From: Thalassovita mediterranea
GTDB lineage: Bacteria; Pseudomonadota; Alphaproteobacteria; Rhodobacterales; Rhodobacteraceae
Direction: 5' to 3'
DNA: 64,000 nucleotides
NCBI RefSeq assembly: GCF_001458435.1
Contig: NZ_CYSF01000001.1
Coordinates: 186,001 to 250,000 of the forward strand
Every line of letters begins with the position of its first letter. Position 1 is the first letter of the stretch. The position numbers and the translations under genes were made by a program. The notes beneath the pieces are model-generated. The model worked only from the letters and a program-made list of their open reading frames with translations. It searched no databases and was not told the origin of the DNA. This document shows positions 43,063 to 48,047 of the stretch, piece by piece.

Positions 43063-43100
43063 TTTTTGTGATCACGCTTTTTGAGGGTGTGATCACAAAA
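43063..43100. promoter_or_regulatory. Tandem palindromic operator upstream of sucC
   Basis: Two identical 8-base palindromes GTGATCAC (43068-43075 and 43089-43096) lie exactly 21 bp apart centre to centre, each flanked by an A/T tract (ATTTTTGTGATCACG and GTGATCACAAAATA). The same arrangement with the same spacing occurs before sdhC. The pattern suggests two dimers on one DNA face. This gap (42961-43331) otherwise holds the mdh terminator and the sucC promoter. Confidence 0.7.
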
Positions 43101-43282
43101 TATGGACCTAAGTAACACTGAGGTAACGGTGTTGCAGCGTGTTCTCGGGTTGGTTGTGGCGTCTGCGACTCATTGCCTATGAGGTGCGCGAAGCGACTGT
43201 CGGGCGCTAACAAACGACCATATTGACAGATGCTTTGTACTAATCACTGAGTAGTCCCGAGGTGGGGCCGCTGCCCAAATTG

Positions 43283-43308
43283 AAAAGGGCCCGCCAGTTG
43301 GCGAGCCC
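43283..43308 (-). terminator. Terminator after mdh
   Basis: 9-bp stem GGGCTCGCC/GGCGGGCCC on the minus strand (43287-43308, one wobble pair) with an AACT loop and a TTTT run. It separates mdh from the sucC promoter region. Confidence 0.8.
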
Positions 43309-43331
43309 TCTGATCTAGTGGCGTCGATGGC

Positions 43332-44294
43332 TTATGCCAGCGAAGGGTCGATCTCTTTACATGCGTCGACCAGACCTTTTACGGCGTCAACGGATTTGTC
43401 GAACATCACTTGCTCTTCTTTGTTCAGCTTGATGTCGACAACCTTCTCGATGCCGCCGGCGCCGATCACGGTGGGCACACCCACGTACATGTCTTTCACG
43501 CCGATCTCACCGTCGCAGTAGGCGGCGCAAGGCAGAACGCGCTTTTGGTCTTTCAGGTAGGCTTCGGCCATTTCGATGGCGCTGGTGGCCGGTGCGTAGT
43601 AGGCGGAACCGGTTTTCAGCAGGCCAACGATTTCGGCGCCACCGTCACGGGTGCGCTGAACCATGGCGTCCAGTTTTTCCTGAGTGGTCCAACCCATTTC
43701 GATCAGGTCGGGCAGCGGGATACCGGCAACGGTCGAGTAGCGAACCGAAGGAACCATAGTGTCGCCGTGGCCGCCCAGAACGAAGGCGGTGACGTCACGC
43801 ATGGACACGTTGAACTCTTCGGCCAGGAAGTGACGGAAGCGCGCGGAGTCCAGAACGCCAGCCATGCCGCATACTTTGTTCGCGGGCAGGCCCGAGAATT
43901 TCTGCAGCGCCCAAACCATCGCGTCCAGCGGGTTGGTGATGCAGATCACGAATGCGTCGGGCGCGTGGGCTGCGATGCCTTCGCCAACCGACTTCATCAC
44001 TTTCAGGTTGATGCCCAGCAGGTCGTCACGCGACATGCCCGGTTTACGTGCCACACCTGCGGTCACGATGCAGACGTCGGCGCCAGCGATGTCCTCGTAG
44101 GACTGGGTGCCGGACATTGCTGCGTCGAAGCCTTCCGAGGGGCCCGATTCCGCGATGTCGAGGGCTTTGCCTTCGGGCAGGCCTTCTGCGATGTCGAACA
44201 GGACAACGTCGCCCAGTTCTTTCAGAGCTGCGAGGTGGGCAAGGGTGCCACCGATGTTGCCTGCGCCGATGAGGGCAATCTTGGGTCTGGCCAT
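43332..44294 (-). CDS. mdh: Malate dehydrogenase
   Basis: NAD-dependent malate/oxaloacetate interconversion, 320 residues. Rossmann [12 protein letters not shown] (about 10-21), substrate loop [13 protein letters not shown] with arginines, [11 protein letters not shown] and the catalytic [10 protein letters not shown]. Lactate-dehydrogenase-like MDH of the alphaproteobacterial type. Own promoter in the 278-base upstream gap, which holds a single GTGATCA site, and own terminator. Confidence 0.97.
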
Positions 44295-44453
44295 GGAAAT
44301 TCTCTCCGGTCCGTTTTGAAATCGGGGATGGGGTAGTCGTTTCCGGCCTTTCGCGCAAGGGTGCTGCGATGCAGCGGGCGGGGTTTCGTTGGGTTTTTAT
44401 ACCGAAAAACCCTGTATCTATTGGCTGGTGGCGCTAACGGGCTGTTTGTCGCA

Positions 44454-44467
44454 TTTTTGTGATCAGA
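44454..44467. promoter_or_regulatory. Single TGATCACAAAA-type site upstream of mdh
   Basis: Reading on the minus strand the site is TCTGATCACAAAAAT, matching the sucC site TGATCACAAAAAT on 13 positions. It is a 7 of 8 match to the GTGATCAC core and lies about 165 bases upstream of the mdh start. No partner is found 21 bp away. Confidence 0.5.
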
Positions 44468-44572
44468 CTGCGTTTTTGCTCTGTCTGCGTTGGCCGTGCC
44501 CCTTCATGCGAATAATGCAGTGTGCAGATTCGCGGTCAGGGTGTGGGTTGGAATGGTGTGCATCGGACTGCG

Positions 44573-44893
44573 CTAAAGAGCCGATCCACCGGCTGGCGCG
44601 GCCTCCGCCAGAGTTTCAAAGGCCTGACCGCTGGCAACAAGGCAGGTCATCCCGTCGGCGCGCGTGACGGTGATTGTCCAGGTGCCAGAAGAGGTGGAGG
44701 CAAACACCTCAACCACTGCATTGTCACGACCAAGGCCGATGGATTGTCGGCTTTCACCGTAATCTGTGGCCAGTTTATCGACCACTTTGTCGCGCGGGGC
44801 GCAGATGTTGGGCGCGGTGGCCTGTGCGGATTGCGCACTAAGAAGGAGGGCGACGCAGCATAGCGCTGCGGGTTGGACGAGGGGGCGTGGCAT
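44573..44893 (-). CDS. Small periplasmic protein of unknown function
   Basis: 106 residues. A clean Sec signal peptide (PLVQPAALCCVALLLSAQSAQA, cleavage near residue 24) leads to a mature part with two Cys (ICAPRDK and MTCLVASGQ), and FASTSSGTWTITVTRADG. Small proteins like this are common and conserved in Rhodobacteraceae but have no known role. The ATG at 44893 has GGACATC upstream (GAAAGGAC). It lies between mdh and mcl2 and is divergent from mcl2. Confidence 0.75.
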   Translation of the reverse strand: MPRPLVQPAALCCVALLLSAQSAQATAPNICAPRDKVVDKLATDYGESRQSIGLGRDNAVVEVFASTSSGTWTITVTRADGMTCLVASGQAFETLAEAAPAGGSAL

Positions 44894-45014
44894 ATCAGAT
44901 GTCCTTTCGGGAAACGAAGAGGTGGGGACAGGCTGACGCTTCGGGCTGAAGATCCGGTTAACGGGCCGAGCGGCCCTTCGATCGCGTGTCCGGATCGGCC
45001 GGACGCCGCGTTTT

Positions 45015-46554: not shown

Positions 46555-46578
46555 GCTGGTTTGGATGAGGAAAGACAC

Positions 46579-46782
46579 ATGAAACTTTATCGGATGCTGA
46601 CCGAAGACGACACATCGGCCTTCTGCCACAAAGTCACCGACGCGCTGAACAAAGGCTGGGAACTACACGGTTCCCCCACCTATGCCTTTGACGCGGCAAA
46701 CGGGGTGATGCGGTGCGGGCAGGCCGTGGTGAAAGAGGTCGACGGCACCTACACACCTGACATCAAACTGGGAGCTCAGTAA
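46579..46782 (+). CDS. DUF1737-domain small protein
   Basis: 67 residues, MKLYRMLTEDDTSAFCHKV, with the conserved LNKGWELHGSPTYAFD and a late MRCGQAVVKEVDG. The DUF1737 family is small and uncharacterised. ATG at 46579 has a GAGGAAAG site; a TTG at 46561 is less likely. It sits 5 bases before mch, probably coupled. Confidence 0.85.
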   Translation: MKLYRMLTEDDTSAFCHKVTDALNKGWELHGSPTYAFDAANGVMRCGQAVVKEVDGTYTPDIKLGAQ

Positions 46783-46787
46783 GCACA

Positions 46788-47819
46788 ATGGCAAAGACCA
46801 ACGCAGGCCGCTTTTTTGAGGATTACAAACTGGGCGATATCCTCGTCCACGCGGTGCCGCGCACCGTCGCAGAGGGGGAGCGCGCGCTGTATCACGCGCT
46901 TTATCCGGCGCGGCATGCGCTCTACTCCTCGGATGAATTTGCGCGTGACTGCGGGTTGGAAGGCAGTCCGCTGGACGATCTGGCGGCCTTCCACGTGGTC
47001 TTTGGCAAAACCGTGCCGGATGTATCGCTGAACGCTGTTGCGAACCTCGGCTATGCCGAAGGGCGCTGGCTGAAGCCGGTGTTTCCCGGTGATACCCTGC
47101 GATCGGTGTCCGAGGTGATCGGCCTTAAGCAGAACTCCAACGGGAAATCCGGTGTGGTGTGGGTGAAAACCCGCGGCTTCAACCAGATGGGCGAAGTGGT
47201 CATGGAATATGTGCGCTGGGTTATGGTGCGCAAAAAGGATCAGGATCTGCCCGCACCCGAAACTGTGATCCCCGATCTAAAACAGGTCATCCCTGCCGAA
47301 GATCTGGTGGTTCCCGAAGGTCTGGATTTCAGCAACTACGATTTCGATCAGGCCGGTGAACCGCATCGCTGGGGCGACTATGAGGTGGGCGAGAAGATCG
47401 ACCACGTTGATGGCGTCACCATTGAAGAGGCGGAGCATATGATGGCCACCCGCCTGTGGCAGAACACCGCCAAGGTACACTTCGACGCCACCTTCCGCCC
47501 CAATGGTCAGCGTCTGATCTACGGTGGTCACATCATCTCGATGGCGCGCACCCTGTCCTTCAACGGTCTGGCCAACGCGCAGATGATCGTCGGCCTGAAC
47601 GGCGGCGCGCACGCGAACCCCTGCTTCTCGGGCGACACAGTGAAAGCCTGGACCGAGGTTTTGGATAAGGCGGATACGCCTGCACCCGGTGTTGGTGCGA
47701 TCCGTTTACGTCTGGTGGCAACCAAAGGCGGCGAACCCTTTGATCTGAAAGGCGAAGACGGCAAGTACAAGCCTGAGGTTCTGCTGGATCTGGACTACTG
47801 GGCGCTGATCCCGCAGTGA
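46788..47819 (+). CDS. mch: Mesaconyl-CoA hydratase (beta-methylmalyl-CoA dehydratase)
   Basis: Hydrates mesaconyl-CoA to beta-methylmalyl-CoA in the ethylmalonyl-CoA pathway. 343 residues made of two MaoC-like hot-dog domains: an N-terminal one (RFFEDYKLGDILVHAVPRTV, about 6-170) and a C-terminal one (YEVGEKIDHVDGVTIEEAEHM, about 197-343). The length equals that of the Rhodobacter enzyme, and mcl2 in the same operon supports the call. Ends 10 bases before an unusual GTGATCAC-centred inverted repeat and a terminator. Confidence 0.95.
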   Translation: MAKTNAGRFFEDYKLGDILVHAVPRTVAEGERALYHALYPARHALYSSDEFARDCGLEGSPLDDLAAFHVVFGKTVPDVSLNAVANLGYAEGRWLKPVFPGDTLRSVSEVIGLKQNSNGKSGVVWVKTRGFNQMGEVVMEYVRWVMVRKKDQDLPAPETVIPDLKQVIPAEDLVVPEGLDFSNYDFDQAGEPHRWGDYEVGEKIDHVDGVTIEEAEHMMATRLWQNTAKVHFDATFRPNGQRLIYGGHIISMARTLSFNGLANAQMIVGLNGGAHANPCFSGDTVKAWTEVLDKADTPAPGVGAIRLRLVATKGGEPFDLKGEDGKYKPEVLLDLDYWALIPQ

Positions 47820-47829
47820 TGACTGTCAC

Positions 47830-47856
47830 CCTGTTTGTTGTGATCACGCAAACAGG
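47830..47856. promoter_or_regulatory. GTGATCAC-centred inverted repeat after mch
   Basis: CCTGTTTG (47830-47837) and CAAACAGG (47849-47856) flank a GTGATCAC core at 47840-47847. The core matches the TCA-operon sites. There is no T-run immediately after; it lies about 310 bases before sdhC. Confidence 0.5.
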
Positions 47857-47888
47857 CAGATCGGAAATGATCGATGAATGGTCGCAAG

Positions 47889-47922
47889 CGCCCCGTTTTC
47901 GAGCGGGGCGTTTGCATTTTTT
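47889..47922 (+). terminator. Terminator after mch
   Basis: 7-bp GC stem CGCCCCG/CGGGGCG with an 8-base loop, followed by TTTGCATTTTTT. It ends the mcl2-mch unit; the rest of the 346-base gap to sdhC is regulatory. Confidence 0.75.
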
Positions 47923-48011
47923 CGGAGCAAAATGATTGCGATAACGGCTGCAGGTTGCGTTGTGGCGCGCAGAATCAAACAAAAATCCCGACAGAAATTA
48001 TTAGGAAAGAC

Positions 48012-48047
48012 TTTGTGATCACTCTTTGCGGGTGTGTGATCACAAAA
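48012..48047. promoter_or_regulatory. Tandem palindromic operator upstream of sdhC
   Basis: GTGATCAC cores at 48015-48022 and 48036-48043, 21 bp centre to centre, exactly as before sucC. Flanks also match: TTTGTGATCAC on the left and GTGATCACAAAAT on the right, with a shared C-TTT...GGGT-like spacer. It lies about 120-150 bases upstream of sdhC, in the expected promoter area. Confidence 0.7.

Follow-up and report, generated by a model that had tools for sequence, protein, structure and literature searches.

In a 64,000-nucleotide stretch of the Thalassovita mediterranea genome (positions 186,001 to 250,000 of contig NZ_CYSF01000001.1; the window), the operons headed by sucC and sdhC are each preceded by two copies of the palindrome GTGATCAC, with centers exactly 21 bp apart. 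We consider it very probable that these tandems are operators of the orthologue of AkgR, a GntR regulator of the FCD subfamily, and that two dimers placed 21 bp apart activate both promoters. What a first-pass annotation of this DNA had put down to an unknown regulon is, most likely, the already named AkgR regulon. A conserved tricarboxylic acid (TCA) cycle operator of a large bacterial family would thereby be tied to a named regulator, and the rule that emerges (GTGATCAC twice, 20 to 21 bp apart, before sucC and sdhC) makes the regulon callable from sequence and therefore testable.

All four palindromes lie where they had first been located, and their arrangement is rare. Across the whole genome (3,431,657 bases), GTGATCAC-N13-GTGATCAC occurs at only two places, the two in the window (Table 1), while only ca. 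0.001 occurrences per genome would be expected under a first-order Markov model of the window. The same type of model predicts ca. 1.2 exact copies of the single palindrome in the window, where eight are found, including the four tandem units. In both tandems the outer flank is T rich on the left and A rich on the right, in line with the A/T tracts described initially. By inspection, the core, having no spacer, is not a CRP/FNR site, as had also been recognized; the consensus for those regulators is TGTGA-N6-TCACA or TTGAT-N4-ATCAA.

Conservation was surveyed in 61 genomes of the family Rhodobacteraceae, drawn evenly with one per genus; since Rhodobacter sphaeroides (G051) is a member of the set, this is also its family. 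The exact tandem was present in 49 of the 61 genomes, with no case for the reversed control, and amounted to 88 sites, mostly two per genome, against ca. 0.08 expected. When the spacer was opened to a range from N4 to N34, the family yielded 100 pairs, of which the 88 with N13 were by far the largest class. Five of the other 12 were N12 (20 bp between centers), all of them at sucC or sdhC (G002, G009, G057, and G055, the last at both promoters), and the remaining seven had other spacers, the one that was inspected (L240) being without a suc or sdh gene. Among the 12 genomes negative for the exact form, tandems with two mismatches look scattered, except for the pair in G040. At 29 of 30 tandem loci from relatives (L003 to L032), the element stands directly upstream of sucC or sdhC, so that the shared operator proposed at the outset is borne out in the family and the tandem is not found equally often inside genes. 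The thirtieth locus (L005, from G042; tandem at 1501-1529) lies between an upstream open reading frame (ORF) and fumC (Lyase_1 and FumaraseC_C domains), which suggests that the regulon was extended to fumarase in the G042 lineage; fumC is a third target in this one genome only.

To describe the promoters, we aligned 38 rows from 41 loci, excluding L005, L123, and L124, which have no sucC or sdhC gene, and computed the column consensus from full-length rows only. Because these loci were mostly fetched for carrying the tandem, the counts describe geometry and not frequency, for which the family, class, and phylum draws were used. The consensus has a T before each palindrome and, in sucC, an A after each, while the spacer retains at most a weak T and varies among relatives; the resemblance first noticed between the sucC and sdhC spacers was therefore dismissed as a coincidence. 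Of 16 sdhC promoters, 13 have the element GTGAC at 57 to 59 bp downstream of the tandem (the exceptions being L032, at 47 bp, L018, where it was not found, and L019, where the stretch is N masked), and in 200 mononucleotide shuffles no 5-mer occurred in more than 4 sdhC promoters. The tandem lies between 114 and 150 bp from the sdhC start codon, except in L019 (295 bp). The geometry of sucC is less clear, since its best element, CGTTT at 44 to 45 bp, appeared in only 13 of 31 promoters (shuffle maximum of 5). If GTGACA-N16-TATGAA is read as the sdhC promoter, the palindromes fall near -97 and -118, which is a place for an activator.

These distances are consistent with a model in which each GTGATCAC would be bound by one AkgR dimer and the step of 20 to 21 bp, two helical turns, would bring two dimers onto one face of the DNA, from where they would activate sucCDAB and sdhCDAB, at about -97/-118 relative to the predicted sdhC start. 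On the basis of gene order, sucA and sucB are presumed to belong to the sucC operon here. Some relatives have longer arrays before sucC, with three units in L156 (steps of 21 and 21 bp; L156:19903) and L178 (26 and 21 bp) and four in L166 (26, 21, and 21 bp; L166:20188), and in L239 (G055) an additional single palindrome stands 106 bp before the sdhC tandem.

The identity of the regulator comes from R. sphaeroides. According to PMC4344238, the GntR regulator RSP_0981 is predicted to control RSP_0967-6 (sucCD), RSP_0974-6 (sdh), and RSP_0965-62 (2-oxoglutarate dehydrogenase), and PMC6365646 lists GTGATCAC among the sites of AkgR in R. sphaeroides and names AkgR a transcriptional activator. From these two sources, we infer that AkgR is RSP_0981. 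The initial statements that no named regulator was known for such a site and that the regulon might be undescribed are thus superseded. Genome G051 is that of R. sphaeroides 2.4.1, as 12 kb of one of its contigs is 100% identical to NZ_CP030274.1; it carries both tandems and has a GntR gene one ORF past sdhB, a position that fits the number RSP_0981 given that sdh is RSP_0974-6. The primary paper on AkgR, the one cited for it in R. sphaeroides, is reportedly that of Imam et al. (2015). In the accessible text of the literature searched (including PMC4419725, PMC5507952, and PMC7471390), whose scope did not extend to the original AkgR paper, no description of the 21-bp tandem was found, and in PMC12724174 the letters of the motif occur in a primer only. 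The phasing of 20 to 21 bp, the fixed promoter distance, the arrays of three to four units, the site in the regulator's own promoter, and the existence of genera that lack both the site and the regulator (see below) may be unreported.

As had been concluded at first, the regulator lies outside the window. Its gene maps to G000:C5:182776-183423 (L041:1054-1704, minus strand) and encodes a protein of 216 amino acids in which the FCD (2e-17) and GntR (3e-13) domains score over the cut-off. From 18 relatives we took a single flank on the sdh side and compared its ORFs, together with those of the window, with the 13 loci of this genome that have GntR-domain hits (12 of them over the cut-off). The GntR gene of G051 was the sole match in that set, and its best partner was the C5 gene, the two proteins being 77.8% identical. 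Along similar lines, C5 is the only one of the 13 hits with GTGATCAC within its 3-kb locus, right in front of the start codon. At least 17 genomes that have both features carry akgR and a tandem on one contig, 4.9 to 16.3 kb apart, while in G035 and G039 the distances are 119 and 150 kb. Residues N137, H141, H184, and D206 of the orthologue were the same in all 13 orthologues aligned, and we take them to be FCD metal-ligand positions. The canonical FCD metal ligands are Asp-His-His-His, and the ligand or metal of AkgR may differ from the canonical ones.

Regulator and site also occur together. With a cut-off of at least 48% identity, AkgR was detected in 51 of the 61 family genomes; 48 genomes had both AkgR and the exact tandem, 3 had AkgR only, 1 had the tandem only, and 9 had neither (Fisher P = 1.2e-7). 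The three AkgR-only genomes hold near-tandems at sucC or sdhC, with one mismatch in each of the pair in G040, N12 at sucC in G009, and N12 at both promoters in G055. Once one-mismatch forms (looked for solely among the 12 genomes negative for the exact tandem) and N12 forms are counted, the distribution becomes 51/0/1/9 (P = 6e-10), that is, a tandem in 51 of 51 AkgR-positive genomes versus 1 of 10 AkgR-negative ones. Both P values overstate the evidence because the cut-offs were set post hoc, the genomes are related by descent, and the assemblies of two double negatives are incomplete. Where named AkgR loci offered sufficient promoter sequence, the exact tandem was present in 8 of 8 cases for sucC and 3 of 4 for sdhC, the fourth (L140) having one mismatch; no palindrome was seen upstream of sucC in L159, L195, and L196, but only 27 to 98 bp of upstream sequence is present there. 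Outside the family, a draw across the class gave no AkgR match above 37% identity at an E value of 1e-40 or better among the candidates scored, of which there were at most 7 per genome.

The regulator's own gene may be part of the circuit. A palindrome was found near the akgR start in 23 of the 30 loci that best match the protein of this genome (L077 to L106), beginning in many loci ca. 17 bp before the start codon. Through such a site, here and in many relatives, AkgR could govern its own expression, and repression would be the likeliest mode, a role suited to a palindrome beside the start codon.

Several observations weigh against this assignment. Binding of AkgR, dimer stoichiometry, cooperativity, activation, and autorepression are all predictions for this organism, and the activator label goes back to a single sentence in PMC6365646. 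Whereas akgR of R. sphaeroides is near sdhB and has no GTGATCAC at its own start, the orthologue here is on a different contig from the tandems and has one; among 80 named loci selected for their resemblance to the R. sphaeroides protein, moreover, only 14 have a palindrome near the akgR start. One genome (G019; about 210 contigs, 91% complete) has a tandem with no AkgR detected, and two of the nine double-negative genomes are only 79% and 82% complete. This genome also encodes a paralogue (C12) that is 38% identical.

The alternative that survives best shares the regulator and changes the sign: AkgR would bind the tandems but repress or switch the sucC and sdhC operons, repression being relieved by a TCA cycle metabolite, as with many FCD-type GntR proteins. 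Most characterized FadR-subfamily regulators are ligand-relieved repressors, and the palindrome ca. 17 bp before the akgR start codon would suit repression. We regard this as rather unlikely, given that AkgR is termed an activator (PMC6365646) and that the sdhC tandem ends ca. 58 bp upstream of the conserved -35-like GTGAC, a position that suits an activator and leaves the promoter free of overlap.

It is distinctly less probable that the tandem is recognized by another GntR paralogue or by some unrelated regulator, AkgR co-occurring with it through common descent within the family. The 13 GntR-domain hits in this genome would provide candidates, and a paralogue of roughly 35 to 40% identity is widespread in the family. 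However, among the GntR loci of this genome, the palindrome is seen at the AkgR orthologue alone, and 9 of the 10 AkgR-negative family genomes are without the tandem. Four of the ten (G004, G014, G019, and G054) keep a paralogue of 30 to 39% identity, and still three of the four have no tandem. The linkage of akgR to the tandems in at least 17 genomes and the R. sphaeroides literature (PMC4344238 and PMC6365646), which indicates RSP_0981/AkgR, likewise argue for AkgR itself.

A further candidate reader is CceR, of the LacI family, whose R. sphaeroides regulon includes the sdh and 2-oxoglutarate dehydrogenase genes (PMC11323563). We infer that CceR is RSP_1663, the LacI regulator of these genes, for which PMC4344238 gives the predicted motif [A/G/T]GTT-N6-8-AAC[A/C/T]; by inspection, GTGATCAC does not fit it, which makes this reading very improbable. 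CceR may have separate sites in these promoters. That the palindromes are due to chance, or to conserved coding or RNA structure, has next to no probability: GTGATCAC does occur inside genes of the window too (48277 and 50670), and beyond the family the tandem and its reversed control are similarly rare (see below), but the family survey, with its 88 sites, its preference for N13, and tandems before the same two genes although spacers vary, has already refuted it for the family.

In genomes from other families, the tandem occurs no more often than expected by chance. In the class draw it was found in 2 of 380 other genomes (L123 and L124), versus 1 of 385 for the reversed control, and in a draw across the phylum, with N12 to N13 allowed, in 1 of 372 nonfamily genomes (L268) and in 26 of 26 family genomes, including this one. 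The tandems in L124 and L268 lie inside ORFs and were treated as chance occurrences. The one in L123 (L123:992-1020, from G207, which belongs to a different alphaproteobacterial family) immediately precedes a GntR gene; the encoded protein and AkgR share 28% identity, and a third palindrome, with one mismatch, is placed 20 bp further upstream. The strong profile score of the L123 protein is not independent because that protein was included in the profile. The neighboring genes read like TonB-receptor and SDR genes.

Taken with the GntR regulator PS417_07240 of Pseudomonas simiae, which is 32% identical to AkgR and for which GTGATCAC was proposed as the site (PMC6365646), L123 suggests that the palindrome is perhaps read by a wider AkgR-like group, a lead that comes from one case. 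As this array precedes an AkgR-like gene in another family, array reading would extend to the whole subfamily, beyond the TCA regulon. We put forward only tentatively, as a property of the subfamily, that AkgR-type GntR regulators read a phased array of GTGATCAC, mostly every 20 to 21 bp and with 2 to 4 units per promoter, the dimers being stacked along one side of the helix and the array held at a constant distance from the promoter.

Among known systems, the closest is the AkgR regulon of R. sphaeroides, which shares the GntR family, the predicted targets (sucCD, sucAB, and sdh), the GTGATCAC motif, both tandems in strain 2.4.1, and a regulator 78% identical to the one here. PS417_07240 differs in that its palindrome lies at -47 to -40 in a deoxyribonate catabolic cluster, with no tandem mentioned in the available part of PMC6365646. 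Among solved structures, the best sequence match of the AkgR orthologue is Escherichia coli McbR (PDB 4p9f; E value of 1e-20), also a GntR-type protein but with another role. E. coli NanR is a FadR-subfamily GntR regulator whose dimers bind repeated sites (GGTATA repeats) cooperatively. It has a different motif and regulon, and AkgR scores only 33 to 38 bits on the NanR model, for which the cut-off is 260.

Table 1. Coordinates in the window of the tandem palindromes, of the genes they are predicted to control, and of related elements.
Feature	Position	Strand	Remarks
sucC tandem operator, putative AkgR site	43068..43096	-	two GTGATCAC (43068-43075 and 43089-43096), centers 21 bp apart; 107 bp from sucC start codon
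sucC, succinyl-CoA synthetase beta subunit	41767..42960	-	target; ATP-grasp_2, Ligase_CoA
sucD, succinyl-CoA synthetase alpha subunit	39937..40824	-	presumed sucC operon; named from sequence
sucA, 2-oxoglutarate dehydrogenase E1	36821..39787	-	presumed sucC operon; start codon inferred; named from sequence
sucB, 2-oxoglutarate dehydrogenase E2	35309..36817	-	presumed sucC operon; named from sequence
sdhC tandem operator, putative AkgR site	48015..48043	+	two GTGATCAC (48015-48022 and 48036-48043), centers 21 bp apart; 122 bp from sdhC start codon
Predicted sdhC promoter	48103..48130	+	GTGACA (48103-48108), N16, TATGAA (48125-48130); putative -35/-10 assignment
sdhC, succinate dehydrogenase cytochrome b subunit	48166..48549	+	target; Sdh_cyt
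sdhD	48562..48933	+	presumed sdhC operon; named from sequence
sdhA	48945..50750	+	presumed sdhC operon; named from sequence
sdhB	51246..52028	+	presumed sdhC operon; named from sequence
Single GTGATCAC	47840-47847	.	20 bp after mch stop codon, within hairpin; uncertain

A glycosyltransferase family 25 gene (40849-41757, minus strand; PF01755, E value of 1.6e-23) splits sucC from sucD, a pair that is usually adjacent and is so in several relatives (e.g., L006, L010, and L028).

Two single sites had been noted besides the tandems. The one upstream of mdh exists as a one-mismatch form, GTGATCAG, at 44459-44466, ca. 170 bp before the gene, but it was rejected as a conserved member of the regulon, since none of 8 relatives having at least 100 bp of upstream sequence matches the palindrome there with one mismatch or fewer; L010 and L015 have a one-mismatch site elsewhere. 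The single GTGATCAC after mch is real and is enclosed by a hairpin (47830-47856), which is followed by a strong GC-rich hairpin (47884-47915) and a T-run that together look like a terminator; the fold z-score for 47815-47925 was -4.1. When 22 rows of mch 3' ends were compared (180 bp each, some genomes being represented twice), the palindromes were mostly a 21-bp pair, that is, the sdhC tandem itself, and a single palindrome was seen only at this locus and in L018. This copy is possibly outside the regulon.

Across this genome, the pattern TTGTGATCAC has 19 placements, four in the tandems, one at the mch 3' end, and one at akgR. Four of the other 13 are in ORFs with a coding-like score (L218, L219, L226, and L228), and the remaining nine, L223 and L225 among them, were not separated by this crude coding score. 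Another flank pattern, which was ill suited, hit 13 places, most of them TGGTGATCACCA. In L223 (1501-1510; G000:C6:577249-577258), GTGATCAC stands directly before a stretch resembling a ribosome-binding site and an ORF of 116 amino acids, which is a possible further target.

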